Shown here piece by piece: positions 1,188-25,758 of a stretch of 64,000 nt of DNA (the first letter of the stretch is position 1; every line of letters starts with the position of its first letter). Position numbers and translations under genes: made by a program. Source of the stretch: Auriscalpium vulgare (lineage: Eukaryota > Basidiomycota > Agaricomycetes > Russulales > Auriscalpiaceae). Below the pieces are notes generated by a model. It ran no database searches, was not told the origin of the DNA, and worked only from the letters and a program-made list of their open reading frames with translations. The stretch is taken from contig JAHBBC010000006.1 in the NCBI GenBank assembly GCA_019915015.1, positions 248,001 to 312,000 on the forward strand. Reading direction: 5' to 3'.

Positions 1188-1284
1188 ACGCATCAACCGG
1201 CACTTTCAACTGTGTGCAGGTTTAAACGCGTCATGGTGCACAAACCCGGCTACTACAATACCCGGGCTGAATAATTATATTATT

Positions 1285-3945: not shown

Positions 3946-3959
3946 CATTTCCCACCAAG

Positions 3960-4195: not shown

Positions 4196-4232
4196 CCTCC
4201 TCCTCACTGAGAACCTGACCGTCCACGGTCAG
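4196..4232 (-). promoter_or_regulatory. Hairpin plus polypurine tract of Gypsy-2
   Basis: On the element (minus) strand a 7-bp stem, CTGACCG/CGGTCAG with loop TGGA (4215-4232), is followed by a 5-nt spacer, CAGT, and then GAGGAGGAGG directly abutting the LTR start TGACAAGC. The purine run is the normal primer for plus-strand DNA synthesis. The hairpin is an addition shared with the other modules at 8540-8576, 20052-20089, 21731-21770 and 26035-26065. Confidence 0.8.
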
Positions 4233-4725: not shown

Positions 4726-6751
4726 ATGTCTGCCCCTACTCCTCGCCGCCTCTCCGACGACAGCGTCGTTCGACAACTCGAGCGCGTCCTCAACCAGTGG
4801 TCCGAGTACGCCAACGCAGCGCAACGACTCCAATGGGTCCGCGACATGGCCAAAGCTATCGTGAGTGCTTGTGCGACCCTTTCGCCTGACTTCCCGACTG
4901 ACTTTCCCGTCGTCAGACCTTCGCTCACTCGTATCCGAACGTCGAGGCGCGACTCGCGCAAATCATCGTGGACTTCCGGGCACTCTACCGGGCGCACGGC
5001 ACACCGGAGTGGAAGGAGCTGGCCCAGGAAGCCCTCTACGACGCGTCGGAGCTGGTTGAAGAGTCCGAGGTACGTGATCGTGTTCTTGGTTGATGCTTGC
5101 GACTGACTTCATCTTCTAGATTGACGACGACGAGTACTTCGCGAGAATGCTCGCCAGCGACGCCGCGCCGGACGCGTTTGTTGCGCCGCCCTCTCCCGCG
5201 CCCCTTCCTTTCCCACCACCTCACCAGCCGACTCCCGCCCGAGCAGTGTCGCTGGCTCCGATCGCGGTCGAGGAGGTTCCGGCGACGGAACCTTCCGAAG
5301 ACGGTGAGATCCACGAGTCGGGAGACGACGAGCTCGTCGAGGTCGTGCCGTCTGCCACGGAGACCGTCAGGCCGCGCAGACACAAGGGCGAATCGGACAG
5401 GGAGATGAGCATGCGGCTCCAGTTCGAGAAGGCGCGTGCCGACGCGCTTGTTACCCGTATCCAGCTCGGGGAGTTCAACTTCAAGGGCACGCCGGTAAGT
5501 CTTGATCGCATGTCGTTCCCGACCGCACGCTGACTCTTCCCTAGGCATGCGACTACTGTGCGAAGACCGGCTCGGACGGACGCCTCGATTGTCGCTACAA
5601 GGCAACCCTCAAGCCGTCGGGGTGGACTGTCGAGTGCGAGAAGTATCGGGAGGCGAAGAAGGGGTGCCGGTGGAGTGAAGAAAACGCGCGCGGTAAGCAG
5701 TCCACATCTATCGCATCTGCGACTTATCATTAACCTTCGATCGCAGCGGCTCTTCGTGCTCGCAAGGCGTCTGCTGCAACCAGTATCAAGGCAGAGGCCA
5801 TCGCGCATGTCGCAGGCCAGAAGCGGGCCGCATCGGCGACTCCCGATCATGAACGCAAAGACACCACCTTCAAGGCTCCGAAGATGGCGCATGAGACCGC
5901 GCGCAAGGAGACACGGGCGTCGGCACACGGTGAGTACTTCCTGCGACGCCCTCCGATCGTTGCTGACTCGTCCTTGAACCCTTTTTAGCTCCTCCGCGTT
6001 CCTTCGTCGGCAAGCCTCCGCCGCCTGTCGCCGCCGCCGTCCCCGCACTAGCCAACATGGACGTCGACGTGACTCAAGAGGCCGGACCGTCGCATCAAGT
6101 CGGAGGAGCGCGTCAAGCTGTGCCGCTAGAGTCGCAGACGCAACGGACGGTGCCAGGTAAGAGCGGCCAGCTCTTCTTGGCGAGTCCCGAGGCGACGACT
6201 GACGTGCCGCGCTCAGGATTGGAACGCGCAGGCTCGTGGGTGCAAGAGGTCGCGGAGTGGCAAACGCCGCCGGTCGACGTGTTCGAGGCAGAGGAGGAGC
6301 CGGTCGCAGGTGAGTTTTGTCTTGAACTTGTTCGGGGCTTCGCTAACCGTTTTTCCTAGGTCCGTCGCATCCAGCGACCGCCCGTCCGACCGCCAGCAAG
6401 GGCAAGGGCAAGGGCAAGGCGCTCCGGCAACACATTCTCCCTCCCGGTCCACGTCCACGCGACTTCATCGCGTTTCCGTCTTTCGCCTCTCTTCAAGACC
6501 TCGTCGCTGGGCGGATCGAGACGGTCTCGGGCACCAGGACTCCGGGGGGCATTACGCTCATCGTCAAGGAGGTGCGCAAGTCGCGCTCGGAGGAACTCGC
6601 CCAGATGTTCGCCCTCCGCGACTCATTCATCGACGGCTGGTGGCGCGACGTCCGCTTGATCAACGCGCCCCTCTGGAGGGCGTACGCGGCGGGGCAGGTC
6701 CCGAGGATCCTGCGCGAGGAGGACGAGTGGTACGAGGTGTTCGAAGAGTAG
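4726..6751 (+). CDS. Antisense spliced gene of Gypsy-2 (unknown function, cysteine cluster)
   Basis: I do not recognise the product. Eight exons join in frame: 4726-4860, 4917-5069, 5120-5494, 5545-5692, 5747-5929, 5989-6156, 6217-6309, 6360-6751 (548 residues). Every intron is GT-AG and 50-60 nt; the 6157-6216 intron is 60 nt and in frame, so retention is possible. The N-terminus looks helical. Residues about 223-265 carry a cluster, C-x2-C-x10-C-x14-C-x9-C, encoded mostly by one exon. A basic, Lys/Gly-rich stretch (KGKGKGK) precedes a C-terminal domain rich in Trp (DGWWRDVRLIN). It runs tail to tail with pol, between pol and the 3' LTR, opposite to the element. Gypsy-1a has a positional counterpart at 23536-25758. 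DNA or RNA binding through the Cys cluster is a guess. Confidence 0.75.
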
Positions 6752-7088
6752 GTGATAGTCGGAGATGTGAGGCGACGTAGTAGATACCCTGTAATTGTAT
6801 TGCGACTTGTTTTCTTGCGACTTGACGTGAATACGACTTTTCTTGCCTGCTCCGACTGTGTTGATGACTGCGCGGGGACTTCGACTTGACTCCGATTATG
6901 TAATGATAAAAGAATGTGGGCGTCCGACTAAGTCGAACTAATGACTTTTGTTTAAGCCTCAGTAATCCTTCATAGGCTAAGGCCCTTTATCTTGAGTGGG
7001 CCTGCGCTACAGCGATACGACGCGAGCGACTTGGTGATGGGGATGGAAAAGGAAAGGAATGTCGGAGGGATGATGCGATCGGAATACT
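6752..7088. other. Tail-to-tail spacer between antisense gene and pol
   Basis: This holds the presumed 3' ends of two convergent transcripts. It is AT-richer than its surroundings, and I see no coding potential and no clear purine tract. Confidence 0.5.
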
Positions 7089-10000
7089 CTACACTTGATC
7101 GGGGACTTCGTCTTCGTCGTCGGGTGCGTCGAGAAGGGGTGGCTCTTCGCCGTCGTCATTTCCATGTTGCGTCGAGGCTTCTAACTCGCGTAGTCGATGA
7201 GTGTCTATGTCGACGTCGGACAAGTGGAAGGGAATCTCCTTGCGAGCGAAGTAGGGGATGACTCGAAATGCGGCGATCGGACGGTCGAGTACAGAGCCGT
7301 CCAGCTCCGCGACGATGTATGCTCCTCCCCGATTGCGGGAGACGACGACTAGGGGTCCTAGGTAGCGCGGGCGCATCTTCCGATTGAGTGACTTCTCAAT
7401 CGCAGTGTGTCGGATGAGTACAAGAGCGCCTCGCTTGAAGTCGAAGTTCTTGATGACGTGTGAATGTTCCTTCTCGAACTTCCTAGCGTTCGCGAGTCGC
7501 TCAGCGTATACGTCCGATCGGAGAGCGGAGACTTGATCATGTCGTTTCTGCAGTGCGATTGCCCGTCGCGCGATGAGGTCTGTGGTCGAGAGAAGAGATT
7601 CGGGAGGGGGCTGGAGGTACGTCACTTCAGAGATGTCGAGGGGAATGATCGGGTGACATCCGGTGACAGCGAAGTATGGGGAGCAGCCCATGCGCTTCCG
7701 AACCGTGATACGTTCCGACCAGAACACCGAGAAAGCGCAGCGCGCCCACTGGTTCTGGTCACCATTCGCGGCCTTGTAGAGTGCTTGCCGAACGTCATAA
7801 TGAGCACGTTCGACGATTCCGTTAGCACGAGAGTTGTAGCCTGAGATGCGAATGTGGCGTATGTGGTATTTCTTCTCAAGATGAACCAGGGCTTTGACAA
7901 AAGGACCGCCATTGTCAGTGACGACCTCCGACAGGGAACCCCAGCAACAGAGGATGCTTTGGAAGATCCAGTCCGCGATCGCGACGGCGTTCTCCTTCTT
8001 GAGTAGGGAGAACTCCGGGTAGGTCGTAAGTGAGCAGCGACCTTGGACGATATAGCGGTATCCTCCTGAGACGGGCATGTGCAGTGTGTCGACGTAGATC
8101 TTTGCGAACAAGGGAGCGGGAGTTGCGACGGTCGGAGGGATGAGGATCTGTCGCTTCTGGCATTGTTGACAGAGGTGGCATGTGCGAACATACCACATAA
8201 CGTCCGATTCATAGGACGGCCACCAGAAGCGTTCTCCGACTAGAGATCGAGTCGCAAAGACTCCGCGATGTCCGACTTTGTCGTGGCAGTCGACTAGGAC
8301 TTGAATACGGCGCTTGGGGTGGGGGATGAGCTTGTGCGCGCCATCTCCTGACCGTCGATAGAGTCGATTGCCGGTGCTGAAGAATCGGAGCGCGTATCGG
8401 ACGAAAGTCGCAAATTCTTGGTCGGAAAGGTGATCTGGTTGCACGGGATCTTCTAACCATTCGCGAACATGGACTAGTCGCTCGTCGGCTTTGATCGCTG
8501 CGTCGCTGCGTGGGACTTCGTCGTACGATAGCTCGGGCTCCTCCTCCTCACTGAGATCTTGACCGTCCGCGGTCAATGCGAACACAGCGTTGAGTCCTGG
8601 GGCGGGGAGGGAGGGAGCTTGGTCGGGTTTGACTGTGGAGCTATGCGTGGGGACTGCGAGCAAAAACCCATACAGGTTGTCGAGCCAATCATCGTAGTCT
8701 TCGTCGGGGGGTTCCTCTGGATCGCCTGGTTGTCGGACGCGACGCGACAGTCCGTCGGGACCATGTGCGATGCCTGGGACGTGTCGCAGGAGGAACTTGA
8801 AGACGAGGATGCCGATGATCCAGCGATTGATGCTAGCCGTCGGAACCAAATCGGGGTTCTTGAGCATTCCTCCGATCGAGCTGGCATCGACTTCGACGAT
8901 GAAGTTCCGTAGTCCGATGAGATACATGCGAAGGGCGCGAAGCGATCGGAAGAGTCCATAGATCTCGAGCTTGGGCTGGGAGAAGCGTCGTTCGCGATCG
9001 TTGAGCGAGATCGATCCAAAACGGCTGTAGTAACGCTTCTTCGGGTTGTTCAGTTCCTCTTGGGCGAGAATGTAGCCGACGGCGATGTAGGATGTGTCGA
9101 CTGCAAGTACGACTGGTGCTTGCGACTCGTAATCGATCGCTCGAAGGGCGTCCGACTTGACCAGCGCGTTTTTGAGGTACTCTTGCGCCTTGTGCTGATC
9201 GGGACCGTACTCCCACTCCGTACCCTTCCGTGTGAGCTTGGTGAGAGGCCACGCATGCTTCACAAAGTCCTTGATGAATATCCTGCAGACTCCGACTGTG
9301 CCAAGGAAAGCGCGAACGTCGGAGAGATCCTTGAGGGGACCCCAGTTCGTGATGGCTGAGATTGTGGTCGGATCAGCGCGGCGACCTTCCGGAGTGCAGA
9401 GGTGGCGGAGGACGGTGAATTCTCGAGCGATGAGGATCGACTTGGGACCGGAGAAGGTACCGCCGGAGTAGCGCATGCGCTGGAGGATCCGATTGACGTT
9501 GGTGAGGTGCTCCCAGACGAAGCGACGAATGTCCTTGTTTTCCGGGATCATCTCGTAAGATCCATCGGAAAGTCGATAGTCGGACTTGGGGCCTTTGAGG
9601 GGGACATCGTCGATGAAGGGCACGGTGAAGGTCGGGATCTCATCCTGCAAAATGAACGTGACGTCGTCGTGGAATATGGGGACCGAGTTCGTCCACCCCA
9701 TCGGAAGGGTGACTAGACAAAGTGCTCCGTAAGGCGTCTGGAAGGTTGTGAAGTCGCGGGATCGGGGGTCGATGAGTCGCTCGTCGTATCCGACGTAGAG
9801 GTCGAGGATGCCACCGCAGGCGCGTCCTCCGAACTGTTCGGCGAGTTGTTCTTGGATCGGAGGGACACCGGAGTGTGCGACTGTGACGGCGTTGAGCGGC
9901 TCGAGCGAGTGGACTATGCGGAGACTTTTTCCGTCCTTCTTCGCAACACAGAACCATTTGGATCGATAGGAGGAGTTGGAGGGCTCGTAGACGCCTGCTG

Positions 10001-10842
10001 CGATCTTCTTCTTGATCATGGCGCAGACGTCGTTGTAGATGCCCGGAGGTATGGGGATGTTGCGATCGACCCATGGAACGTGTGCGACTACAGGAATCTG
10101 GATCGGAGGGAAGTATTCGGGTTTGAAGCTGCCGCGTTCGGTGTCGTCCCATGCGAAAGCCTCGTTCTGTTTTACGATGATGTCGTGCAAGAGGTCGCGC
10201 TCGGTCGGGGTGAGGAATTCGTAGCTGGGGTTCGCGTCCATCTTGTCGTGACGTTCTTGGGTGTATCGACCGGTGGGAACGAAGGGCGGGGGATGCGTCG
10301 ATAATGGTGGCATGGATGCGAGGGGGTCTCCGATGATGTTGCGCTCGATGCGAAACCCGTCAGGGAGCGTGCCAAGAATGGGGCGGACTTTGTCTGCGAC
10401 GGGCTTGTACTTCTTCTTGCCAAGAAAGATGTCGACTGGGTCCAGATCGGAAGGCGAAGGCGACGATGTGGACGAGTTCAAGAAAGTGGTCGGTGGTCGC
10501 GGGGAATGTCCAAGATATTGCTGAGTGTCGTCGTCAAGATGTGGGTGTCGATAGCGCGGTTTCTGAGTCGGAGATGGCTTGCGATCGGACGACGTATACT
10601 GGTGACCAAGATTTGATTCGGGAGTCGTACGTGATTTACAAGGCTCTGCGGGACATATTTTGTTCAAGAAAGACGGGGCTGCGTACTCTGGCAAATGCGT
10701 GCGGGCTTCGGAGGCGGTAACATAGGCAGCTTGAATCGCGGAGTCGTCGGAGGCGTCGATTGGGGTATATGCAATGATGCGCGCGTCGTCGCCATCGCCT
10801 TCGATGATCATGGCGATGGCTTCATCTTCACCTAGATCATCA
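7089..10842 (-). CDS. pol: Gypsy-2 Pol (reverse transcriptase, RNase H, integrase)
   Basis: One open frame with no stops runs from the REP-1A junction at 10842 to the stop at 7089. Its first in-frame ATG is at 10811, but the frame continues across the REP-1A insertion into 19152-19202 (IIGFARHAIAAPTF-DDL), so that ATG is not the natural start. Order: reverse transcriptase with TLPMGWTNSVPIFHDDV and the active-site FIDDV (the usual YVDD varied); RNase H (DTSYIAVGYILAQEE); an HHCC zinc-binding region (HDKVGHRG...CHLCQQC); integrase core with Asp in YVDTLHM, TDNGGPF and Glu in NGIVERAH; and a GPLVV-type C-terminal module. No chromodomain is visible. The ORF looks catalytically complete, though the element is broken. 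Confidence 0.93.
8540..8576 (-). promoter_or_regulatory. Second hairpin/purine module inside Gypsy-2 pol
   Basis: On the minus strand, stem TTGACCG/CGGTCAA with loop CGGA (8559-8576) is followed by a 5-nt spacer, CAGT and GAGGAGGAGG. About 35 nt match the true 3' module at 4196-4232. The outer stem pair is T-A here and C-G there, so pairing is kept. The stretch is translated as part of the acidic linker DLSEEEEPELSYDEV before the integrase. It may be a central purine tract or the origin of the 3' module. Confidence 0.55.
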
Positions 10843-11385
10843 CATGTTGAAGAGAGCCGTTGCTACGCACGGCAGGCGATTCCATCCAAGCATAGTTAAT
10901 AATGTTATGGTGAGTATATGATGTATTTGAAAATGTGACTATAAATACCAGCAACAAAGTAAAGATGCCTTGGGAATGCAAAATTCTCAGTCTTCCCTCA
11001 ATTATTTGTTCAGTTGTACATGAGGAAACAAAGAGGGAGCTATGGTTTATATATACTTACAAGTGATGTCTATTCATTTGGAGTTCAACAATTTTAGAGT
11101 TTGTTATTTGCAGAAGGAGTGGTGAAGGAAAGCATTTGTAGCAAACATGTGGCTTATAAGGATGGATGATATACTGACCTAAATCTACATGAACAATGAT
11201 CTGAGGTCAAATTTACTACATATGGCGTTAGTTCAGAAGCCAATAGAGCAGTCAATATTGAATTGTTAATGTATATGGCACCCAGGCCATGAACAAACAC
11301 GAGCAACAATATTGAATCTTTAATCTATGCTACACTCGAAAGTAATCAAACCCTAAGCCTACTGAGGCGAGCCACTTCTTGAATT
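10843..11385. other. Left arm of REP-1A (non-coding)
   Basis: This AT-rich stretch begins with the terminal hairpin gccgttgctacgcacggc (10856-10873) and the inner motif caggcgattcc. It repeats almost exactly at 28013-28557. I see no gene in it. Confidence 0.7.
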
Positions 11386-12078
11386 CACATAATACCACCA
11401 GGACAGATTTTTAATTCAAAGCACAGCGAAATACACTCAGCCCCATTTAAATTTACATCAAACCACCAGGCTAGAATTTCAGTTCAGATCACACCGGAAT
11501 GCACTCAGCCCCTGTTTAAATTCACATCGCACCACCGGGCTGGATTTTTAATTCAGATCACACCAAAATGCACTCAGCCCCTGTTTTAATTCACATCATG
11601 CCACCGGGCTGAATATTTAATTCAAAGCACAACAAAATGCACTCAGCCATGTTGATATTCATATCAGATGACCAGGGTGGATTTTTAATTCAGATCATAC
11701 CAAAATGCACTCAGCCCCTGTTTTAATTCACATCATGCCACCGGGCTGAATATTTAATTCAAAGCACAACAAAATGCACTCAGCCATGTTGATATTCATA
11801 TCAGACGAGTAGGGTGGATTTTTAATTCAGATCATACCAAAATGCACTCAGCCCCTGTTTTAATTCACATCATGCCACTGGGCTGAATATTTAATTCAAA
11901 GCACAACAAAATGCACTCAGCCATGTTGATATTCATATCAGACGAGTAGGGTGGATTTTTAGTTCCGATCACACCAAAATGCACTCAGCCCCTGTTTTAA
12001 TTCACATCATGCCACTGGGCAGAATATTTAATTCAAAGCATAACAAAATGCACAAAGCCCCTGTTTTCATTCACATCA
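11386..12078. repeat. 69-bp tandem array, left part in REP-1A
   Basis: The unit is about 69 bp, starting cagatcacaccaaaatgcac and including tcagcccctgttttaattca and a gccaccgggctgaata motif. Units differ by a few bases and by small indels. The array is cut by X2 at 12078/12079 and resumes at 16831. Confidence 0.85.
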
Positions 12079-13174
12079 CTTGGTGGGAAATGGCCAGCGC
12101 AAGCATGGCAGTACAATTACTCTTAATCATTTAGGGGGCAGGGGGGAGAGGGGCTTGGCCATTAAATATACCCAAGCAAAATTGCTGACAGTTTAGGCTT
12201 GGGGATTGTCTCTATCATTGGGTGGTAGCTCAATGTCCTGCATGCTCCGATGCACTAGGTGGTCGGAGGTGAGTGTTGCAATGTTGTGACGTTGTGATCA
12301 TTCTTCCGGTAAGAATGCTCCGGAATGGTGGTCCGATTCCTGAGGCAATAATCGGGACGCTAATGAAAATACAAAACAATCAGGATCAGAATGATGCAGT
12401 GCGAGTACAAGAACTGAGGTGGACAATGGTGCGACTGCAGAGGAATACAGATGTCACAGTAACTGGAGTGGCATTGTGCACACATTCTGATGACAATCTC
12501 AACAGTAAACATGTCTGATGGCATTCTGACGAGTTGTGACAGCTGTGGGAGATGTTGTGCTTGAGGTTGCGTGGTGGCCATTGGAATGATGAGAGCAGGT
12601 TGGACAACTATGTGCAGGTCGTGCCACTGGGTTGATGGTTCAAGGGTGCTGTCCAAGGTGCACTTTTGATCATGAAATGTTTTGCAAGACTGCAATGGTG
12701 AGAACTCTGGCTCCTACCTTGCAAACATTCGGAAAGACTACTTGAATGGTCTGAACGCTGCTGTTGCTGTGAAACACCTCAATTTCCCAAATTATTACGT
12801 GGCTGTCGACTTGACAAAAGGGCAAAAATTCCCCAATGATTGCCTGGCAGCATGTAACAAGGCGTATCAACCTATTGCTTAGCCCTATCATGTATTATAT
12901 ATATGATATCCTACAAAGAGTGAGCACTTGTAACCATTAAGATGATCTGGACACAGATGGTAGAGATGTATTGGCTATGTTTTCTCAACTCTATATATTG
13001 TGTTTGCATTATTGTGATTTGCAAAATGGATGAGAATCACTGAACAAAAAGAGTTCAAAGGTCCTCGACCCGTTGGCTGTGGCGCCACCGGGTGCCGCGG
13101 CTCCGCTCTTGACTCTGACACTTACATATAGCCGCCGCACTCTCGCTGCTGCTTCCCACAACATGTGACGTGTT

Positions 13175-14580
13175 GACGGGCACCCACAGGTAGTAGGGTG
13201 GTAAATGTGTGTGATACCAGATACCTAGAGCGCTGAGGAGGGTACCGTGATGATGTGTGTGTGCGAGTGGGTGTCAGGGTCCCGAAGATGATCGGATGCG
13301 TGTCTCCGACGTGGTGCGCAGGAGGTGTGTGCGGTCGGAAAGGTGGATCAGAGTGCACAAACGGTCGGAGAACTGTGCCGACGAGGGTCCGGAGGTGAGG
13401 ACACGTGGTGCGAGTGACTGTGAGAAACTGGACGCAGTGCGTACAACCGTCGACAAAGGTGTGCAGAGTGTGGCTCTAATGCGTGATGCGCGACGGCGTT
13501 GCGAGGTGATCGAAACAACAACAAGGGGTGCGGTCAACAACGCTGAACTGTTGCGATCGTGCGAACGGTCGGATGAGTAGAGGCACAGGTCGGAATGTCG
13601 GATCGAGTGGTGGGAGTAAGTGCGATCGAGGGTGCAACCGCGACAGGACAAATGGAAGCGAGGCTGGGATCTCTCATGTCCCAAGACGGTAGGAGCAACG
13701 ATGAGTCATGCAGGCAATGACGCAGAACCGTGTGGATGGTCAGAGGAGCGGGGGCGATGGGCGGAAGATAGGGATGAGTGGTGCAAGTACACCGATTCAT
13801 GTTGCGATCGCTGCGGGACGAGCGGAACACAATTGTGATCTCCGATGTCACAAGACACTCGGAGCGATGAAGTGTGAGGGCAACAGCGGATGCAATGATG
13901 ATGGAATAAGATGAGAGGGAGGAGAACAATGAGCTGAGTGCGTGAGACGACGACGAAGACAAAGGCAAAGGCAAAGGTGACAGAGCTTGCCTCGAGCTAA
14001 CTATACAATAGAGACGGAGATGCTGTGCTCCAAATGAGATCTGAACCATGGGGGGAACCGAATCTGTATTGCAGTATGGATGCGACCGCTATTTATATGT
14101 TTCGACTGCTGCAGTACAAGTCCGATCAAGAATGAAGTCGGAATAAAGGAAAATGGTCGGAACAAAAGCAAATGATGGTGTGCAAGTTGCACATGGTACA
14201 GACAATGGAGGAGAGTCAAGAGGCTGTATAGAACAATGTAGAGCAAGTGATCAGCGCTTATCAGGAGGACAGTGCAAGCACATGGAAAACAATCTGCGCT
14301 ATCAAGGAGTGCGGGAGAGACATCCTACAGAGTCGAACAAGACATTACAACTAGAAAAGGAGACAATGGAGGTGTGGCTGGCGAGTGGTAGAATACACTC
14401 CGATGTGTGAGGGGGCTGCAGGTAAGTGTTGCGATTTTGCGACTCGTCGAACGGTCGGAAGAATGCTCTGGTATTGCGTGTGCAATGGTCAGAGCGGTGG
14501 AGGGATAATCGGAGTGCTGGTCCGACCGCAGAACGATCGGGATCGAATATATGTAGCGCGAACTTGAGCACTGAGCTGGA
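13175..14580. repeat. Decayed Gypsy-2-like LTR within X2
   Basis: The order of short matches to the LTR at 42406-43703 is conserved: the early ggtagtaggg and tagagcgctg blocks, gtgtgtgcgag, ggaayaagatgag, and a ctatttata block near 14090. Many substitutions and indels separate them. The exact right end cannot be fixed by eye. It is either an old solo LTR or captured cargo, and X1 lacks it. Confidence 0.5.
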
Positions 14581-15649
14581 CAATGGTTGGAGGACAATGG
14601 CGCAACTGTGGGGGTACTCGGAAGTCGCAGAGACGTCGGAGAGATGTGGCGCACGTGCTGAAACAACGATCCCAAGAATCAAAATGTCTGATGGAATTCC
14701 GGTGCGTTATGACAGCTGTGGGAGATGCTGTGCTTGAGGTCGTGTGGCGGCAGTTGGAACAATGAGCAAGTGGTTGGATGACTGCGTGTGATGTGTGCAA
14801 CGGTGTTGCTGGCGCGAGTGTGGTGTCCAAGGTATGATTCCGATTGCGTGACTGCTCTGCAAGAGTCCAATCTTGCGAGCGGTCGGAAGAACTAATCGGG
14901 TGGTCGGAGCACTGCTGTGCGATGCTGCGATCTTCGGAATTGTGTGTCTGTTGACTTGATGAAAGTGTGAAAATTCTGTAATGATTGCCTCGCAGCATGG
15001 AGCAAGGTGTATCAGCGTCGTCACCATTGTGCTGACGCACCACACGACGTCGACAATGTGTGTCTTGGCTTCCACTACGCCTATGGAGGCGGTTCCGGGC
15101 TCAATCGAGGGCTTGGATGTCATGTATTTCTATGATGCCCAAGAGTTTTATCTGATGCTGTATTTCATGGCAAAAGAGTTATATTTCATTTTCACATGTA
15201 TGTAATTTCTATCCACAGTAGCACCATAGAATTGCATGTATATGTGAATCAGTCATGATAGGATATCTCGATTGAGCCCAGAACCGCCTCCACAGGCGCA
15301 GTAGAAGCTGAGATACACGTTGTCAATGTCGCGTGGCGCGTCAGCACGACAGCGACGACGCGCCACATGTTGTGGGAAGCAGCGGCGATGTGTAAGTGTT
15401 GGAGTCAAGAGCGAAGCCACGGCACCTGGTGGCGCCGCAGCCCACAGGTCGAGGACCTCTGAACTCTTTTTTTTTCAGTGATTCTCCTCCATTTTGCAAA
15501 TCACAATCATTGTAGCTTTATATATATATATATATATTGTCCCAAAGTACCAAAGAAGGGGAAAGAAATTGATGCAAAGAGCAAACTGTCTTGTAGGGCA
15601 GGAGAAGATAGAAGGTCAACAACTACTGCACATATCCTATAAAGCTAAA

Positions 15650-15736
15650 TGGCCTTGTAGTGTAGTGGTGAATACTATTGGTTGTTATATAAAGCCAAGA
15701 GGTTGTAGGTTCAATTCCCCCTCTGTGCGACTTTTT
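15650..15736 (+). other. tRNA-derived pol III promoter module in X2
   Basis: It starts tggccttg and has an A-box-like tagtgtagtgg (15658-15668), a perfect B-box ggttcaattc (15708-15717) and a T5 run at 15732-15736. Stems are too poor for a working tRNA. It is conserved with the inverted copy at 1285-1371, so it belongs to the X family and is not a chance match. Confidence 0.55.
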
Positions 15737-16830
15737 ATTAATATAAATATTCAGCCCGGGTATTGTAGTAGCCGGGTTTGTGCACCATGACGCGTTTAAA
15801 TATGCACACAGTCGAAAGTGCCGGTTGATGCGTCATGGTGCGTGTTTGGCCTACCCGTGGGAAAGTTTTACCTAAAATGGAAACTGTGCAGTATTGTTTG
15901 CTGGCTCGAGAACAATTGAAAACATGTTCATATTGTTGCTGGTTAGCTTGCAAAACGCAAAATACTTGCAGACATGAGTATCTTTGGAAGTGAGAAGGTG
16001 TTGAAAAGCATTGGGCAGGAGCTACTTAGCTAAAAATTGCTCAATTGCCGGGTAACCGGGTACTTTATCCCCGGGATTAGTAAGCAATGACTCATTGACC
16101 GGCAAAAATCCCAGTCTGCCTAATTCAACTGCGTCATTTTCCCACGCTTGTTGAGGAATTATTTTTCCCACGCTTGTTGAGGAATTATATTATTGGCTAT
16201 TCACATAATCAACATCCTTTCAACACTTCTGGTATATATAATGCATGGTAGTTAGCAACTAGAGCCCTCCCAATTGCCAACCTCACCATTGTCACCCCGT
16301 GGGAACATGTTACCAAAAAGGGAAGTTAGAAGGCCTTCTCTTCTGACTTGAGAACAATTGGTATCATGTGTATATCAATGCTAATTAGCTTGGAAAATGC
16401 AAAATACTCGCAGACAAGAGTGTCTTTTGCAGTGCAAAGGCGTGTAAATCACAGGGCAGGCAGGAGCTACTTAGCTAAGAATTACAGAATTAGGCAGATG
16501 GGACGACACGACTTGACTTTAGTCCAAGCTTTGGGACATATCTCCTAGAGCAATCTTTCTAATGCATGCATTTTGCCTGACTGATGAAGGAAATAAATGA
16601 TTAGGAGGAATCATAATGAAGAGTACTCGTCATGAGAACCATGCTAGTGCTATAGTTGAAGTGTGAGGATCCTGCAAGGTGCGGCAGGACCTGCTTAGCT
16701 AAGAATTACTGAAAAAGGCAGTTGGGACGACGCGACTTGACCGTGGGATCTATTTCCTAAAGCGACTTATAATGTGTTCACGTTTTGGCCTGACTTGGTT
16801 GAAGAAAGAAACGATTAAGAGTAATCGTAA

Positions 16831-18500
16831 TGCCACTGGGCTGATCAAAGCACACCAAAATGCACTCAGCCCCATTTAAATTTACATCAAACCACCAGGC
16901 TGGATTTTCAGTTCAGATCCCACCAGAATGCACCCAGCCCCTGTTTAAATTCACATCAAACCACCGGGCTGGATTTTTAATTCAGATCACACCAAAATAC
17001 GCTCAGCCCCTGTTTTAATTCACATCATGCCAATGGGCTGAATATTTAATTCAAAGCACAACAAAATGCACAAAGCCCCTATTTTCATTCACATCATGCC
17101 ACTGGGCTGAATATTTCATTCAAAGCACATCAAAATGCACTCAGCCCCATTTTAATTTACATCAAACCACCAGGCTGGATTCGGATCACACCGGAATACA
17201 CCCAGCCCCTGTTTAAATTCACATCACACTACCGGGCTGGATTTTTAATTCAGATCACACCAAAATGCACTCAGCCCCTGTTTTAATTCACATCATGCCA
17301 CCAGGCTGAATATTTAATTCAGATCACACCAAAATGCACTCAGCCCCTGTTTTAATTCACATCATGCCACCGGGCTAGATATTTAATTCAAAGCACAACA
17401 AAATGCACTCAGCCATGTTGATATTCATATCAGACGACCAGGGTGGATTTTTGATTCAGATCACACCAAAATGCACTCAGCCCCTTTTTTAATTCACATC
17501 ATGCCACCAGGCTGAATATTGAATTCAGATCACACCAAAATGCACTCAGCCCCTGTTGTAATTCACATCATGCCACCGGGCTAGATATTTAATTCAAAGC
17601 ACAACAAAATGCACTCAGCCATGTTGATATTCATATCAGACGACCAGGGTGGATTTTTGATTCAGATCACACCAAAATGCACTCAGCCCCTGTTTTAATT
17701 CACATCATCCCACTGGGCTGAATATTTAATTCAAAGCACAACAAAATGCACTCAGCCATGTTGATATTCATATCAGACGAGTAGGGTGGATTTTTAATTC
17801 AGATTATACCAAAATGCACTCAGCCCCGTTTATATTCACATCATGCCACCAGGTTGAATATTTAATTCGAAGCACAACAAATGCACTCAGCCCTCTTGAT
17901 ATTCATATCACACCAAACCAGAATGCACTCAGCCCCTGTTTTAATTAATATCACACCACCGGGCTGAATATTTCATTCAGATCACACTGAAATGCACTCA
18001 GCCCTGTTTAAATTCACATCAGATGACCAGGGTGGATTTTTAATTCAGCTCACATAGAAATGCACTCAGCCCTGTTGAAATCTGCATCACACCACTTGGA
18101 TGAAATTTCAATTGAGATCACAAAAAAATGCACTCAGCCTTGTATAAATTCACATCATGCCACACCAGAATGCTCTCAGCCCCTGTATTAATTCACATTA
18201 TGCCACCAGGCTGGATATTTAATTTGGATCACACCTAAATGCACTCAGCTCCTGTTTTAATCTATATCACACCACCAGGCTGGATTCTTAATCCATATCA
18301 CCAAAATGCTCCCAGCTCCTATTTTGTGTTATATCATACCACATTGCTGATTTTTAATTTAGGTTATACCAAAATGCACTCAGCCTCTGTTTGGATTTAT
18401 ATTAATTTATATCACACCGCAAGGTTGAATATTTGTTTCAGATCACCCTTCAGCCCCTGTTTGGATTTATATCATACAACAAGGTTCAATGTTTGATTCA
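16831..18500. repeat. 69-bp tandem array, right part in REP-1A
   Basis: This continues the array from 12078. Units become progressively more degenerate to the right (from about 17850). Short open frames here, such as 18239-18496, are translations of the repeat and not genes. Confidence 0.85.
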
Positions 18501-19151: not shown

Positions 19152-19202
19152 AAGGTGGGAGCCGCTATGGCATGCCTTGCGAAACCGATGATGGCCTCGC
19201 GG
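19152..19202 (-). CDS. Gypsy-2 gag-pol junction fragment
   Basis: This 51-bp island of Gypsy-2 lies between REP-1A and Gypsy-1a. On the minus strand one frame continues the protease C-terminus (TFP-RGHHRFRKACHSGSHL, then a stop once REP-1A is removed). The frame one base downstream continues into pol (REAIIGFARHAIAAPTF-DDL). Gag and Pol therefore lie in different, overlapping frames, which suggests translational frameshifting. The last 4 bases (GCGG, 19199-19202) are the left target duplication of Gypsy-1a. Confidence 0.75.
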
Positions 19203-20051
19203 TGATGAGATGAACCCTGGGGGAGGCCCCGGGAACGTCGATAGAAATGGAGGGAGCGAGCAGCCAACCGCTGGCCCAAGAGGTAGTGGGTCGGAGGAAG
19301 AGACCCAAGATCGCGACCGCGCCCCGAACAAACCACCCAGGACCCCGCGGGTCCTGCCCTCGTCCTGCGTCCCTCTCCCTCTCTCTTTCTCTCCGCTCCC
19401 GTCCGACCGTCGCACGTGGCGTCTCCTCCCACACTATTCGGTGCGACCCTCCCATCTGTCGCCGCTGGCCCGTCCTAGTCGCGGAGTCGCCCTTGCCGTC
19501 CGACCGTCCGACCTGTGTCCCTGCGCTTGTCCCGTCCGAGTAGCTATCCTAGAATATAAATGTCAGTCATAAAACCTACCACACTGTATCACTCCAGTCT
19601 GTGGCCGAGTCGGGGCAGCGTAGCCCGTGGTATCGCAAAGGTAGCGCGACCCGGATGTCGCTACGGCTTCCTGGTTTAAGTCATCGTGTCGGGCTGGTCT
19701 GGCTGTGTCGCGGCGTGCGATGCTCTCTGTGAAGCAGGAATGAAAGGTGTAGTCTCGGGTGTAGGCCCAAGGTCCAAAAGTGTCTATACAAGAGTATGAA
19801 TCGCATCTATATACCGCTGCTTCGTCAGCTCTCCCACGGCCCGTGCACTCGCGCCCCGCTAAGCCTCGCCCCCCTCCACGGTACGCTTCCCCTACGCCGT
19901 CTGTTATCGCAGCTGTGTCGCCCTGCCTCCGGAGTATCGCATCGTGGTCGTGTGGTTGCCTCGACGCCCTATGGGCGTCTCGGGGGTGTGTATCGTTCTG
20001 TAGCGGTGCGATCGGCCCGTTTCGGTGCCTGTAGCGCGGCGGGTCCCATCA
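19203..20051 (-). repeat. 3' LTR of Gypsy-1a
   Basis: It begins TGATGAGATG and ends GTCCCATCA on the plus strand, 849 bp. Compared with the 5' LTR I see G versus A in tgtccctgcRcttg and T versus C in ataaaYgtcag, both transitions. Open frames inside it (for example 19247-19543) are not genes. Confidence 0.95.
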
Positions 20052-20089
20052 TCCTCCCCCCAACTGAGCTACCGACTGTCCTCAGTCGG
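20052..20089 (-). promoter_or_regulatory. Hairpin/PPT module 1, at the Gypsy-1a 3' LTR
   Basis: On the element strand, stem CCGACTG/CAGTCGG with loop AGGA (20072-20089) is followed by a 5-nt spacer (TAGCT), then CAGT and TGGGGGGAGGA abutting the LTR. The purine run is in the position of the plus-strand primer. Confidence 0.82.
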
Positions 20090-20214
20090 CAAATCCCCGG
20101 ATGGCTCCTCCAGATAAAGGCTCCCTCGCGCCGTCTCGATGAGTCGTCAGGTAGCGTCGCACCGCCCGTCCGACCCAACCAAACTCCCGACACAACCCCC
20201 CCCCACACACCATC

Positions 20215-21443
20215 ATGACCTGGTCTCCCCACACGTACCGTCGCGGTACTCTCTTGCTGTACCACCTGGGTCGGGCCCCCAGCGCGGACTTCCCACTCGC
20301 AGCAGCCGCCGAAGCAATCGAGTCGCGCGAGCGTTGGGGACAGGAGGTGTTGGCTGTCATCGTACGATTCCCCTCTTTTCCCGTCCCGTTGTCGCGCTAA
20401 CCGTCCGCTCCCATCGGCTGTAGGAATCCATCACCGATTCCGACCCCAGGCTGATCATCCCCCTCGCCGAGCGCATCCTCATGCCGATACTCGAGAACGC
20501 CATCCTCCTCGTACCCGAGGTCGAGGATCGCTTCCGCTCGTGGGCGGGGCGCTTTCTTCGTCCCGCCCCGCTCCCTACGACCGAGCTGCACCCGTGGACC
20601 TCCGTTGTTGATCGGGTCGACCTACTTGACGCCCCCAAGGTCCGGCTGACCGCGACGCTGGTTGAGGAGAACTTTTGGGTCGTGTTTCGCAAACGCGGGT
20701 GCTCGGTCGCGTCGTACTTGCGCGAGCTCGCCATTTTCCATGCCGCCATCCCCGATGACCGTCCCCTGGGCAACCAGACGTGGGTCGCGTACGTCGTCCG
20801 AGAGGCCTTGGAATGTTCCGCGCTCTCCATTCGCCACTCGCGTGGTGGGACCGCTTTCCTTCCCGACTACGTCGCCCGCGAGTCGACCGCTTGGCCCATT
20901 TCGCCCCCCACGCAGTACGGTCGCAACCTCGGCGGACTGGGTGCGCGTCTTTTAGCTCGTTTCGAGGCCGTGTACCGCGAGACCGTCGAGGAGCTCGCTG
21001 GGGCTACGGAGAACGTCGCCAATCTGCAAGCCCTTTGGGCCGACGCTCCCTACCTGTTAGCCATCGTTCGCGACCCCTGCCTCTCCCTCGAGCACGCAAC
21101 CCGACTCTTCCTGGAGTACGCAGTGACTGCGGCATATGTTCTGCGCCATTTCCCAGCCGCCCCGACCGAGCCCGACCTTTACACGAACAACCTCTTGGTG
21201 ACCTTTGTGCGCCATCGTGTATTGTCGGGGCTCCCCGCCTTGCCCGCCGGTGATGGTGTCGGCTTGGTTGACGACGATGCCGGCGGTGTCGATTCCGTCG
21301 AGCAGATGCAGGGCGATCCCGTGGACGCCGGGGGTGTCGGGGATAATGTCGCTGTGATGGAGCGTGTGGTGGTCGGCGATGTCGGCGCGATAGTGGATTA
21401 CCGCAGCGATAGTGATAGCGACATCGCGAGCAGTCGCGAGTAG
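20215..21443 (+). CDS. Antisense gene alpha of Gypsy-1a (unknown function)
   Basis: I do not recognise the product. Two exons, 20215-20361 and 20424-21443, join through a 62-nt GT-AG intron to give 388 residues. The first exon has exactly 49 codons and ends in phase 0, as in gene beta next door. Around the junction both proteins have a W-G-x-x-V motif (SRERWGQEVLAVI here, AREEWGRKVATLY in beta). The body is helical-looking and rich in Leu, Ala and Arg, and the tail is acidic. No signal peptide or membrane segment is evident. It lies between PPT modules 1 and 2, opposite to the element. Confidence 0.72.
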
Positions 21444-21730
21444 TGTACCCCTTCTGTAAATGGTCTCTCCGGCCGCCATGAATCGCACAGAACTGTGGCC
21501 CCTGATGTCTCATAGCAATGATCGTCGCGTTTCGCTGCGTGGGCGACTCATAGCGTCGCGCGGTCTCCGACCGTGTTCTGATGGATCGCGGATTCGGTTG
21601 CGCGTGGTCGGCTCTGACTTTGTCTTGTCCCGCTCCCTTCTGGCTACTTGTTCCTCGTGCACCCTGCGCAGGCTGGTCACCCGTCGCCGAGAAAATCCCT
21701 ATCTTTCTCCTCGTCGCTCGTGACTGGCCA
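21444..21730. other. Spacer after antisense gene alpha
   Basis: It holds the presumed 3' UTR of alpha. No other feature is seen before PPT module 2. Confidence 0.4.
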
Positions 21731-21770
21731 TCCTCCCCCCAACTGAAATCTGCGCCTGTCCTCAGACGCA
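21731..21770 (-). promoter_or_regulatory. Hairpin/PPT module 2, internal
   Basis: On the element strand an 8-bp stem TGCGTCTG/CAGGCGCA (one G-T pair) with loop AGGA (21751-21770) is followed by spacer GATTT, then CAGT and TGGGGGGAGGA. The purine part is identical to module 1, but the stem sequence differs while pairing is kept. It separates gene alpha from gene beta and has no LTR beside it. Confidence 0.72.
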
Positions 21771-21865
21771 CATTCTCCGGCCAAACCCCGGCATATCGGG
21801 TCGCGGCGGGTTTCCGACGGCCTACATAACGCGTGCGGTCGGTGCGTGCGACCCAGCCTCCGACC

Positions 21866-22975
21866 ATGTCGTCCAGTTTCACCCTTGAGGCGCGTGCTTT
21901 CGCCCTTGTCGGGCTACTCCTCACTCCGCCCGCGATTGACCTAGAGACCGCTCCCGTCGAGACCCTGGTTCAGGCTCGGGAGGAGTGGGGTCGCAAGGTT
22001 GCTACGCTCTACGTAAGTCCTCGCGCTGTCGTTGCGATCCCCGCTCACGTCCGTGTCGCGCTTATCCAGAATGAAGTGTATAACACTGCGAAGCCATCCG
22101 TCCTTTGCCTTGTCCAGGCAATTGTCAGCCCCGTCTTCGAGACGCTGTTCACCGTGTCCCCCGAGTCGCGCGCCGCGTTTGCTGAATGGGGTGGTAACCT
22201 CATCGGCGACATCGCGCCTCCGACGTCCGCTCCTCTCGACCCGACATTTTCGGTTCGCCCGATCGCTGGATTCACCTTCCCGAACAATCGCGACCACTCT
22301 CGCCAGCTCTCGCGCCTCTGCGAGGGCGCCCTGTGGGCCGCATTTGAGTCGGGCCGCACGTCCGTTCCCCAGTACCGTCGCAGCCTTGGTGAGCTCTGCT
22401 TGGCCGCTCATCCCACCGGTCGCGGAGCGGGCATCGACGCGACAGTCCACGCGGAGTTCATTGCCGGCATGAATGCTTGTGCTTCGGCTCTTCAGCGCCT
22501 GAACGGCGGGGAAGAGGCCCTCCTGTCCGAGGTCCATCGCCTCTCCTACTCGACCACCGGCATATCCCTCCCCGACCTCCTGCGTACCCTCGCGCACCCT
22601 CTGTCCGACACGCTCATCACCCACACCACCGAGACCGTGGCGACCTTGGCGTCGATCTACGGCACCATCGCGCAACTTGCGCGACCCGACGACCGCCGCG
22701 CGCGTGGTCGCTGGGGTCCGTATGCCGACGCCTTTGACTCCGCGGATGGGTTCTTGGAGGCCGCCGCTGCCGCGTATCTGCGCGACGCCTTGCAGTGGTC
22801 CACCACTATCGACAGTCTTCATGCGCGCACCGCCATTGAGAGCGCTATCCTCGCGTCGAACCTCCCCACCGAGTTATTGGCCGACGTCCACAGCGACCCG
22901 ACGATGTTCTTGGACGAGGTCGTGACGTTCCGCGCAGTCCCGATGGGTTGGCAAAACGCGCACCGTGGTCGTTGA
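21866..22975 (+). CDS. Antisense gene beta of Gypsy-1a (unknown function, alpha paralog)
   Basis: The ATG at 21866 opens a frame that stays open to 22975. A canonical 57-nt intron (22013-22069, GTAAGT...CCAG) lies in it in frame. Spliced, the protein has 350 residues, and retention would add 19. The 49-codon phase-0 first exon and the EEWG motif at its end match gene alpha, so the two look like diverged duplicates. The product is Ala/Leu-rich and helical-looking, without a recognisable domain. An in-frame ATG at 21833 would add 11 residues; I prefer 21866 for alignment with alpha. Confidence 0.7.
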   Translation: MSSSFTLEARAFALVGLLLTPPAIDLETAPVETLVQAREEWGRKVATLYVSPRAVVAIPAHVRVALIQNEVYNTAKPSVLCLVQAIVSPVFETLFTVSPESRAAFAEWGGNLIGDIAPPTSAPLDPTFSVRPIAGFTFPNNRDHSRQLSRLCEGALWAAFESGRTSVPQYRRSLGELCLAAHPTGRGAGIDATVHAEFIAGMNACASALQRLNGGEEALLSEVHRLSYSTTGISLPDLLRTLAHPLSDTLITHTTETVATLASIYGTIAQLARPDDRRARGRWGPYADAFDSADGFLEAAAAAYLRDALQWSTTIDSLHARTAIESAILASNLPTELLADVHSDPTMFLDEVVTFRAVPMGWQNAHRGR

Positions 22976-23535
22976 GGCGGGGGTGCGACTCGGGGACGCC
23001 TCAATCAGCAGGGACGTATCCCACGTGACGATCCTGCCACGCTGTAGCGTCGTCGCGCCGTCGGAGCGTCGGGAGATAAAGGGAAAGAAAGAGCCCGCGT
23101 TAGTGTAGTGCCTTGCGCCCGCATGTATGTCGTTGAATGCCTCCCAATGCGAGTATTGAACTTGCGACGCGTTACCCGCTTGTGCGACGCCAGTGTACCG
23201 TGGTCGCGCCCCGTGGGAGGGGCGGGCGCCAACGACTTGTGCGATTTCGCTCGCGCCAGCGACACGTGCCCGCCACGCGGCGTCGGAGCCGCGCGTGACG
23301 TCCCGCACCGGTCCGGGGCATATCGCGGGATCAAATCAACGATCGCTGATCAGATCGCGGATCGACCCGGCATCGTGGGCGCTCGGAGGCAAAACCAGCG
23401 CTCTGGCCAGGCCACGCGGCCGGTCGCTCCCACGCACGCGCCATTGTTCGTGCGCCTGTGGCGAAGTCGCCGTCGCCCTTCTTCCTTTTCCCCCTCTCAC
23501 TCGCTCCCTCACCCGCTCCCCCGATTCACCCTGCC
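22976..23535. other. Intergenic region between antisense genes beta and gamma
   Basis: A GC-rich stretch ends in a strong pyrimidine-rich leader (about 23470-23530) just before the gamma ATG. Open frames cross it but share no signature with anything I know. I take it as the promoter region. Confidence 0.45.
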
Positions 23536-25758
23536 ATGGACGCCGCAGCCATCGCCGATGCCACCGCCACTCGCGCCATGCTGGACCTCCAGCTGGGGTT
23601 GCTCGGGCCCATGGCTCGTGACGCCACCTCCGAGGCCCAGCTCGCTTTGCTGCGCCCGCAGGTCCGCCAGCTCCTGGTGCGTCCGCCCCCTTTCTAGCTC
23701 CTCGAGCATTGCTGACCCTACTCCGTCTTGCGGCTCTACAGCGTTCCTATTACGACGCTCGCGGTCGCGGCGTGACGTTCTCGGCCGTAGGAAACACGCG
23801 CGCGCTACGACGCGCTCGAAGAAGCCGTCCGTCCACCGCCCCTGTTCCTCGACGAGGCGGACGACGAGATGGAGGAGGGCGATCCGCCGGCTGGGGCTAC
23901 CCCCCCAGCGCCCCACGCCTCGCCACCCCCGGTTGCCACCTCGGCCATCCCCGCCGCGACGAATGTCGGTGAGGGAACGTCGGGGGACGAGGGCGCCCCG
24001 CTCGCTCGTTCCCGCCCCAAGGTGCGTACTCGACTTGTCGCCGGTGCCGCTGCCGCTAACTCCGTCCTTCCTGTCGCTCCTCAGGCTCGTCGCGTGCCCG
24101 CCAACCGCGCAGAGGTGGTGCTGCGGCGCTTAGTACCGCCTCCCTCACCTCCCTCCGCTCGGAGTCAGCGCCACGCCGCGCGCGCCGCTGCGCCGACCGT
24201 GCCCGCGTCCGCCAAAGTCGCCGGGAAGTGTCGTGCCTCACGATCGCCCATGCCCCTTTCGTCTCCTCGCACGCCGCCTCGCTCCCGTCCCACCCGCGGT
24301 CGCCCAGCCAAGAAGGGCCGTCCTACGCCTGCGCCCGTCGCGCCGAGCCCCTCCCGACACAGCTCCCCTTCGCCCTCGCCCGCTGCCGGCCTCGACGAAT
24401 CGCTGTCCGACGCGGTCGACAGCGATGGCGACGCGATGTATCACAAGTCGGTCGCCCGTCCCACGAATACCGAGCGGTACGCCGGCGAGCGTATCAAAGT
24501 GAGTCGCCTCCTTTCTCTTCGCGGGTACCCTCTACTAATCCCTCTCTCGCCTCTCCCAGACCTCTACCCGTTGCGTGCGTTGTGAAACGCACTTCAAGCA
24601 GGGGCCCAAGCGGTGCGAGTTCAAACCGCACCTGCCCCAGAAGTGCATTCGATGCCGCGCGCAGCGGAAGGCCTGTGGCGGCGCTGTGTTCGCCGACGGA
24701 TCGCGACCTCGCCCACCCCCTGCTCGCTCTAGCCGCGGGCGTCCTGGCCGTGCTCGGGCCGTCTCCCGTGCCCCTCGCTCGCGCTCGGCTCCACGCGCCG
24801 CGGTGATGTCGTCCACCGCCCGCCTGCTAGAGGATCTGCTCGCGTCCGGCGACTCGATCGGTGAGTTTTCCCTTGTCTCCCTCCTTATCTCTTTCGTCTA
24901 ACGTCCTTCGTTCCTTACCCAGATCCCCCGCGCCGTGCCCGCGACCTGCTGGCCGAGGTCTTGTCTTCCGTAGACGCGGACGCGGGCCGGTTTGAGTCGC
25001 TTCCGGCCGCCGCTCGCTTCCCCGAGGGCGCAGAGTCCATCGCTCTCGTCCAAGCGGAGCTGGACGCCAGTCGGACGACCCTCCTGTTGTGGCCATACCG
25101 CCACGACCGTCTTCTCCTCCGCTGGGCGCAGCTCACGCACCGGTATGGCGCCCGGGACACTTCCGACGTCCCTGCCTCCGTCGCCGGTCGTTCCCTTTCC
25201 CCTCCCGGCTCGCCCGTCGCTGGACCCAGCAGGTTGCATGGCCCCGACTCTCCGACCATCGCCACCCTCCCTCCTAGCTCCGTCGCCGGCTCGGCACCTG
25301 GTGCGGCATCCGCCAGCGACAATGAGGAGGACGAGCTGGAACCGGCTCGCCCCCCTTCTCCGTCATCGCGCGGGTCGCCCGTCCCCGCGGCCACTTCCTT
25401 GCGCACCTACGGTCGCCCGCGTGCCGTTCGTGCCACCTCGGCGTCCGACGAGGCGGAGGCCCTTCCCGCCGACAGCGGCGTCACCCTCGATCCCGTCGCT
25501 GGGCCGTCGAGTGTTGGCACTGCTGGTGGGGTGGAGGAGGACGACGATAGCGAGGTTGCGGCGGCCGCCGGCCCCGCGGCCGGAGGCGATGTCGAGGCGG
25601 AGGAAGAGAGTGATGAGGAGGAAGAGAGCGATGAGGAGGAAGAGAGCGATGAGGAGGAAGAGAGCGAGGACGGCGACGAGAGTGAGGACGGCGACGAGAG
25701 CGAGGACGGCGACGTGCCTGGCGCTGCTGTTGTGGAGGATATGGACATCGACGAGTAG
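23536..25758 (+). CDS. Antisense gene gamma of Gypsy-1a (unknown function, cysteine cluster, acidic tail)
   Basis: I do not recognise the product. In-frame exons: 23536-23676, 23791-24021, 24085-24498, 24560-24860, 24923-25758 (640 residues). The first intron is long (114 nt) in this model, and the 24022-24084 intron is in frame and could be retained. Residues about 266-300 hold C-x2-C-x10-C-x9-C-x2-C-x6-C; its first half (C-x2-C-x10-C) matches the Gypsy-2 antisense protein. A Ser/Pro/Arg-rich region precedes it, and the C-terminus is an acidic repeat. It is tail to tail with pol, as in Gypsy-2, so it is the positional counterpart of that gene. Confidence 0.72.
25597..25720 (+). repeat. Tandem repeats encoding the acidic tail of gamma
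   Basis: An 18-bp unit encoding SDEEEE is repeated about three times, followed by an 18-bp unit encoding SEDGDE repeated about three times. All units keep the frame. Confidence 0.8.

Follow-up and report, generated by a model that had tools for sequence, protein, structure and literature searches.

Spliced antisense genes in Gypsy elements of Auriscalpium vulgare: old alleles of a pol-proximal gene on similar backbones

The window analyzed here is a stretch of 64,000 nucleotides (nt) from the basidiomycete Auriscalpium vulgare (assembly GCA_019915015.1, contig JAHBBC010000006.1, positions 248,001 to 312,000), which holds two Gypsy retrotransposons with long terminal repeats (LTRs), a Gypsy-2 copy and the Gypsy-1 copy Gypsy-1a (Table 1). 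Both carry spliced genes between pol and the 3' LTR on the strand opposite to pol: one in Gypsy-2 and three, termed A, B, and C, in Gypsy-1a, the Gypsy-2 gene and gene C being the pol-proximal ones. A first-pass annotation of this DNA had predicted four such genes, encoding 548, 388, 350, and 640 amino acids, and all four were reproduced inside LTR elements with pol on the other strand. Beyond that annotation, the pol-proximal gene shows deep allelic divergence and is shuffled among similar elements.

In the window, the Gypsy-2 gene has seven GT-AG introns, each 50-60 nt long. Searches of the 51.6-Mb assembly, in which the best ~40 candidates were scored per search and all counts are therefore lower bounds, found this gene in at least 24 near-full-length matches (the window's and 23 others). 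Across 12 genes (the window's and 11 copies), GT-AG boundaries are kept in 83 of 84 introns, and intron length stays within 48-61 nt in all of them. The reading frame is unbroken in 9/11 other copies, or in 8/11 when a lost splice donor is counted, the two broken copies having a frameshift in exon 5 and a premature stop, respectively. Insertions and deletions (indels) are multiples of three in 28 of 29 cases in exons versus 6 of 71 in introns, counts taken from related copies in which the events are not independent. The ratio of nonsynonymous to synonymous divergence (dN/dS) of the Gypsy-2 gene is 0.09-0.30 over 15 pairs (one-sided P against neutrality 3e-8 to 2e-23): 0.09-0.17 between copy C19b and the rest of class I, 0.28 for the window versus C19a, which belong to one class, and 0.23-0.30 between classes; pol gives 0.05-0.19 in the same pairs. 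Between the window and locus L033, gene A shows a dN/dS of 0.25 (dS 0.05) and gene B of 0.08 (dS 0.88), and distinct gene C alleles give 0.22-0.33, with 0.00-0.11 for Gypsy-1 pol. The first-pass annotation had taken conserved position and orientation as a sign of function and had named dN/dS as a check; the genes are indeed kept in place in multi-copy families, open reading frames (ORFs) were found in other copies of the same families, and selection on the antisense genes overall (dN/dS 0.08-0.33) is purifying, not neutral. The antisense genes are thus element-borne, conserved in splice sites and frame, and under purifying selection.

Two other explanations of the reading frames were discarded. 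Chance ORFs in GC-rich DNA were rejected on the indel pattern, splice-site conservation, and dN/dS. Coding on the sense strand was rejected after following four long frames opposite the antisense gene, none of which is kept in all copies (0/4), two of them staying open only in the covered stretch or in a few copies. Over its full 595 residues, an uncharacterized A. vulgare protein matches the spliced gene C of locus L034 at 94.5% identity, with all exon joins colinear. An intron-bearing structure resembles that of a host gene, and the genes could be captured host sequences carried as passengers; we consider this very improbable, because the only homologues found were uncharacterized A. vulgare proteins (at most ~8000 candidates scored per search, gene B left out) and all 11 other Gypsy-2 gene copies examined continue into element sequence. 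The introns are present in copies with identical LTRs and hence came through recent reverse transcription; the first-pass annotation had proposed that introns on the strand opposite the genomic RNA survive this step. Transcription of these genes would begin at a promoter within or next to the 3' LTR, and the transcripts would be spliced; the introns may persist because the sense genomic RNA bears only their complement, which would remain unspliced there. Introns can be retained in a retroelement if the gene is antisense.

The pol-proximal antisense gene stands out as an island of divergence. At least three classes of it exist in Gypsy-2, against ~98% identity in pol. Besides the window's gene, two genes at 93-94%, 12 at 83-85%, and nine at 74% (near full-length) were listed, and a shorter match at 69% was also among the matches listed; the first 2001 bases of the window's pol are 97-99% identical in the other Gypsy-2 copies listed, with 97-98% in 9/9 listed copies that carry a 74% gene (eight over 2,001 bases, one over 608). 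In a profile against C19b, identity is mostly 95-100% in the bins of pol and gag (the lowest 87, 92, and 94%) and 88-100% in those of the LTR; over the gene it drops to 60-72% for C2b and C45, and for C19a and the window to 74-81%. In the pair C22-C2b, the gene reaches a dS of 0.857 versus 0.028 for pol (31-fold), and the corresponding values are 0.765 and 0.041 for C19b-C2b and 0.346 and 0.103 for C19b-window. Within one class the gap disappears (window-C19a, gene 0.119 versus pol 0.111).

Class III differs from class I over a cassette that begins at the inner LTR edge and stops near the end of pol. Beyond it, the distance between the two classes is near the level within class I, the largest excess lying in an LTR bin (8.7 versus 5.8%), with the exception of two bins where the class III copies do not agree among themselves. 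For class II, nearly all sequence outside the cassette comes from C19a, and this copy differs from class I by 8-14% in gag bins 8401-8801 and by 11% in one LTR bin. In this comparison of classes, the window's values in bins 4601-5600 were set aside on account of a paralogous match, and its row was corrected for the dS comparison. The Cys cluster and the C-terminal part of the protein are best conserved between classes (dN/dS of the Cys cluster 0.12-0.13), and most replacement changes lie in the N-terminal and linker parts. A high local mutation rate in this slot was rejected in view of the homogeneous gene that occupies the same slot in a third family, Gypsy-3.

Gypsy-1 gives the same picture with a different boundary. 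Among the copies listed, 26 have genes A-B 98% identical to the window's; 25 of these have an adjacent gene C, which is 68-74% identical to that of the window in 25/25 (seven at 74%, one partial at 73%, three at 72%, three at 70%, and 11 at 68%). The pairing left out seven partial A-B rows and one 98% copy, C12, whose gene C (74%) lies ~10 kb away. Seven further copies have A-B at 89-90%, six with a gene C of the 68% class and the seventh in pieces. Searched from locus L036, at least 18 copies (itself included) carry a full-length gene C at 99-100%; genes of the other classes are 65-68% identical to it, some over part of their length, with 70% in part for C8:36138, and in pol these classes reach 95-96% or 92% identity, with 86% for the window. 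Synonymous divergence in gene C and pol is 0.886 and 0.025 for L034-L035, and 0.977 and 0.074 for L034-L036. In L010 and L034, identity falls from 96-97% to 72-75% in the 300-base bin that holds the start of gene C, the 300 bases ahead of that bin still being 96% alike. Gene B also exists in two deep types (dS 0.88, window versus L033), beside a near-constant gene A (dS 0.05).

Between gene classes of both families, dS is 0.7-1.1 in most pairs. Such high silent divergence is what would be expected if the antisense mRNA and the sense genomic RNA formed double-stranded RNA and divergence let an element evade small RNAs made from other copies. Escape from RNA silencing is nevertheless improbable, since gene A, equally antisense, keeps 94-100% identity to the window's gene A in both copies compared, and since the introns, missing from the mature antisense mRNA, are more diverged than the exons (62-64% versus 74-75% identity between class III and the window or C19b).

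Recombination has placed old alleles of the pol-proximal gene on similar backbones. Gypsy-2 copy C10, whose LTRs are 100% identical, is an intragenic recombinant in which the gene switches from class I to class II within exon 3. The pol tree joins the window with C45 (100/100), and the gene tree joins C2b with C45 (100/100); in tree tests on pol, grouping the two class III copies together was not rejected (p 0.087), nor was grouping class II (p 0.060), and grouping II plus III was rejected (p 0.004). In Gypsy-1, the gene C of L033 and that of L036 are 99.5% identical, yet the gene B of L033 is 79-85% identical to the window's, and the L036 copy belongs to the 98% A-B group. Next to gene A, one LTR type (97-100% over 490 bases) recurs in every gene C class except the window's (four classes) and is carried by at least 16 of the 25 paired copies (seven of the 74%, three of the 72%, three of the 70%, and three of the 68% class), and the window's own LTR type also occurs in 68%-class copies with the other type of gene B. 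LTR type and gene C class are thus freely shuffled. The history of an accessory gene can therefore diverge sharply from that of gag-pol.

Mosaicism extends to pol, LTR, and gene B, in agreement with the main rival of a selective explanation, neutral mosaicism, by which a successful gag-pol/LTR lineage recombined with older elements, so that the genes are real and their diversity is not selected. We regard it as quite possible, if short of probable. The island, in two families, hits the pol-proximal gene; its bounds (the ends of LTR and pol for class III of Gypsy-2, the vicinity of the start codon for Gypsy-1) would need two-sided crossovers in several classes; and gene A still shows a dS of only 0.05 between the window and L033. 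These three points speak against a purely neutral origin.

The six-Cys cluster encoded by gene C in the window reads CX2CX10CX9CX2CX6C, and such a cluster is present in gene C at 6/6 loci examined (five distinct alleles and one near-identical). In the window's Gypsy-2 gene, the fifth of the six Cys is replaced by Tyr. The first-pass annotation had noticed that the pol-proximal genes of both families open a Cys cluster in the same way. The spacing proved real, CX2CX10C...CX2CX6C being common to gene C and the Gypsy-2 gene, with 0 matches in 50 shuffled windows; homology of the two clusters is not supported, as profile searches run either way found no significant match between the two genes and hhalign returned a weak alignment (probability 19%, E 0.0012, 42 columns). 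The antisense gene of Gypsy-3 (L038) is homologous to the Gypsy-2 gene (tblastn E to 1e-8); its Cys spacing is exactly CX2CX10CX14CX2CX6C, and the C-terminal regions are alike. Gypsy-4 (L039), with CX2CX9CX14CX2CX6C in the same slot and weak similarity (best E 9e-4), probably carries a homologous gene as well. Fungal Zn2Cys6 transcription factors have the spacing CX2CX6CX5-12CX2CX6-8C. The six-Cys antisense genes resemble them in that the cluster ends in CX2CX6C, and differ in their overall spacing, CX2CX9-12CX9-14CX2CX6C, with a first loop of 9-12 residues instead of 6; the Zn2Cys6 family PF00172 gave no Pfam match in the antisense genes (gene C being represented by its A. vulgare relative).

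Basic stretches occur in the pol-proximal protein, and gene C adds an acidic tail and GRP motifs, which recall AT-hooks. Neither the Gypsy-2 gene nor gene C encodes a transmembrane-like segment (maximum 19-residue hydropathy 1.46), and genes A and B encode one borderline hydrophobic stretch each (1.52 and 1.89). The likening of this slot, between pol and the 3' LTR, to that of retroviral envelope genes accordingly goes no further than position; envelope-like genes are a scarcely credible alternative, given the opposite strand, the lack of such segments in the two pol-proximal proteins, and the single stretches in A and B.

Our preferred, tentative reading, with a rough probability of 0.48, is that the pol-proximal gene encodes a nuclear regulator of the element that binds nucleic acids, and that selection maintains its different types. 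The six-Cys cluster and basic stretches, and in gene C also the acidic tail and GRP motifs, suggest a regulator of the element's own activity. Alleles might be kept apart if an element gains when its regulator, be it a repressor or an anti-silencer, differs from that of the prevailing copies, and they would likely reach other backbones by template switching between co-packaged RNAs. That the gene is an element-specific immunity or anti-silencing locus, with old, distinct types kept by negative frequency-dependent selection and moved between similar elements by template switching, in the way that immunity regions are swapped among phages, seems rather unlikely as a specific proposal.

Several observations weigh against a selected regulator. 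No Pfam family reached the cut-off for the Gypsy-2 gene, A, B, or the A. vulgare relative of C, the gene C profile had no PDB match, and the structure models are too weak to use (mean predicted local distance difference test scores 37 and 46). Average dN/dS is ordinary, with no positive selection, as neutral mosaicism would have it. The Cys cluster is conserved across Gypsy-2 classes, so specificity would lie elsewhere, and class-specific recognition, if any, would fall to the N-terminal part and the linker. Outside the cassette, classes I and III of Gypsy-2 showed no co-varying cis target, nor was one seen in the 490-base part of the Gypsy-1 LTR, one type of which accompanies four gene C classes; this lack counts for neutral mosaicism. 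So does the Gypsy-3 gene, which is homogeneous (95-100% in 14 full-length copies listed; pol end 97-100% in 16 copies listed), leaving a hypervariable pol-proximal gene in 2 of 3 families examined. Finally, 3/12 Gypsy-2 genes are without one of the six Cys, one of these with identical LTRs, and 2/11 other copies are broken, again one with identical LTRs, from which it follows that not every recent copy needs an intact gene in cis.

HBZ of human T-cell leukemia virus type 1 (HTLV-1) is a spliced basic leucine zipper (bZIP) protein of a retrovirus. No bZIP match was found by Pfam in the antisense genes (gene C via its A. vulgare relative), nor any match at E<=1 to TRP28 (PF04195), searched in the same way. 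The likeness to HBZ lies in the antisense orientation and in the position near the 3' end of a retroelement; HBZ is nuclear (PMC11963269), and the regulator proposed here would be nuclear as well. Among plant Ty3/Gypsy elements, antisense ORFs between pol and the 3' LTR are described for Retand (TRP28), Grande (gene23), and RIRE2 (PMC11963269, PMC7264820), and such ORFs of LTR retrotransposons have been known since 1997 (as cited in PMC7264820). These are likewise Gypsy elements with the gene in the same slot, and a nuclear or DNA-binding role is proposed for them in the text of these sources (PMC11963269, PMC7264820), specifically a regulatory, DNA-binding one in the Retand paper (PMC11963269). 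A nuclear protein expressed from a promoter of its own would mark the Retand/Grande type. Unlike Retand and Grande, the A. vulgare elements carry as many as three such genes, each with 1-7 introns, and similar backbones bear deep allelic classes; neither paper uses the word "intron" in its main text (PMC11963269, PMC7264820). The Boty element of Botrytis cinerea and Sclerotinia sclerotiorum has an antisense ORF between pol and the 3' LTR (cited in PMC7264820), and is, as far as that description goes, alike in being a fungal element with the same slot, and different in its ascomycete hosts. VANC of Arabidopsis VANDAL transposons is, as these papers describe it, also an element-encoded factor diversified between related copies, albeit in another kind of transposon and with co-diverging non-coding tandem repeats as its targets (PMC5735166, PMC10398659); loss of silent marks in trans would mark action of the VANC type. 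No such tandem repeats were found in the non-coding parts of the window's Gypsy-2 and Gypsy-1a. Among the open-licence papers listed in our searches, none was seen to report spliced antisense genes for Gypsy elements of basidiomycetes, or young backbones that bear old alleles of such genes. The multi-exon antisense genes, up to three per element, with old alleles on young backbones, hence look new. Many young copies with several gene types on similar backbones coexist in one genome, which makes function testable.

Table 1. Features of the Gypsy-2 and Gypsy-1a copies in the window
Feature	Position	Strand	Remarks
Gypsy-2 3' LTR, inner remnant	3961-4195		98.7% identical to the LTR of complete copy C19b; element transcribed on -
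Gypsy-2 polypurine tract	4196-4208	-	complement CCTCCTCCTCACT on +; adjoins the 3' LTR; edge position as in complete copies
Gypsy-2 antisense gene	4726-6751	+	8 exons (4726-4860, 4917-5069, 5120-5494, 5545-5692, 5747-5929, 5989-6156, 6217-6309, 6360-6751); 548 aa; six-Cys cluster in exon 4
Gypsy-2 pol frame	7089-10862	-	RNase H and Integrase_H2C2; tail to tail with the antisense gene
Gypsy-1a 3' LTR, inner part	19560-20049		paired with 39218-39705
Polypurine-tract complement motif CATCCTCCCCCCAACTGA	20050-20067	+	at the LTR end, upstream of gene A
Gypsy-1 gene A	20215-21443	+	exons 20215-20361, 20424-21443; 388 aa
Polypurine-tract motif, exact second copy	21729-21746	+	upstream of gene B
Gypsy-1 gene B	21866-22975	+	exons 21866-22012, 22070-22975; 350 aa
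Gypsy-1 gene C	23536-25758	+	5 exons; 640 aa via an alternative acceptor; multi-allelic
Gypsy-1a pol, 3' part	26079-27797	-	Integrase_H2C2; tail to tail with gene C
Gypsy-1a 5' LTR, corresponding part	39218-39705		100% identical to 19562-20049, over 488 of 490 bases searched

The window's Gypsy-2 copy is a fragment that runs from the LTR remnant to the end of the element match at 10842, and it is flanked by inverted repeats (1188-3960 and 12078-15833, 89-98%). The LTRs and polypurine tract were mapped in four complete copies (C19b, C1, C10, and C19a), C19b being 12.03 kb long with two LTRs of 1,297 bp that are 100% identical. Along the strand of the antisense gene, the 3' LTR comes first, followed by the polypurine tract, the antisense gene, pol, gag, and the 5' LTR. 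Read from the flanks, GCGG, GCGG, GCGA, and GCGC suggest a 4-bp duplication at these four insertions; GCGN adjoins the LTR ends at all four sites, and a target preference may exist.

In Gypsy-1a, genes A and B are distant tandem paralogues (BLASTP E 5e-11, 25% over 187 amino acids), each with an intron after residue 49. The 18-bp polypurine-tract motif has two exact matches in the window versus 0.04 expected, and its presence before both genes suggests a duplicated unit with the tract at its start. The window's gene B ends earlier than that of L010 and L033, and the frame of its gene C is kept only by the downstream splice acceptor, the acceptor homologous to that of other copies giving an interrupted frame. 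A 490-base part of the L010 LTR recurs in pairs ~13.5-13.7 kb apart around many other Gypsy-1 copies. An L010-type LTR part also lies in the window at 691-1181 (within 332-1187, 100%) and is probably the 5' LTR of a neighboring copy starting at C6:233135, outside the window.

Gypsy-1a seems to be interrupted between ~27.86 and 33.58 kb. Inverted tandem repeats of a 10-bp unit lie at 27861-27901 and 33540-33580, about where its pol stops, and an RNase H frame resumes beyond them at 33597-35624; the repeats may be the two termini of an inserted DNA transposon of ~5.7 kb, with a satellite array inside it. The segments 10842-11141 and 28012-28311 are 100% identical over 300 bp and lie near the breaks of the Gypsy-2 and Gypsy-1a copies, perhaps reflecting the same kind of insertion at both. 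Satellite-like arrays of a 69-bp unit (137-bp higher-order) occupy 11340-12119, 16838-18402, and 28552-31161, and Gypsy-2 copy C10 holds repeats of ~70-bp spacing. Just past the Gypsy-1a 5' LTR, a further gag-protease frame of 942 amino acids with an aspartyl protease lies on the - strand (39625-42453). Elsewhere in the window, a Copia-type element with integrase and RVT_2 domains was found on the + strand at 43532-53980, a perfect 29-bp tandem repeat of 4.1 copies at 58415-58532, and a frame with an SPFH/Band 7 domain, probably a host gene, at 60468-61535 (+).

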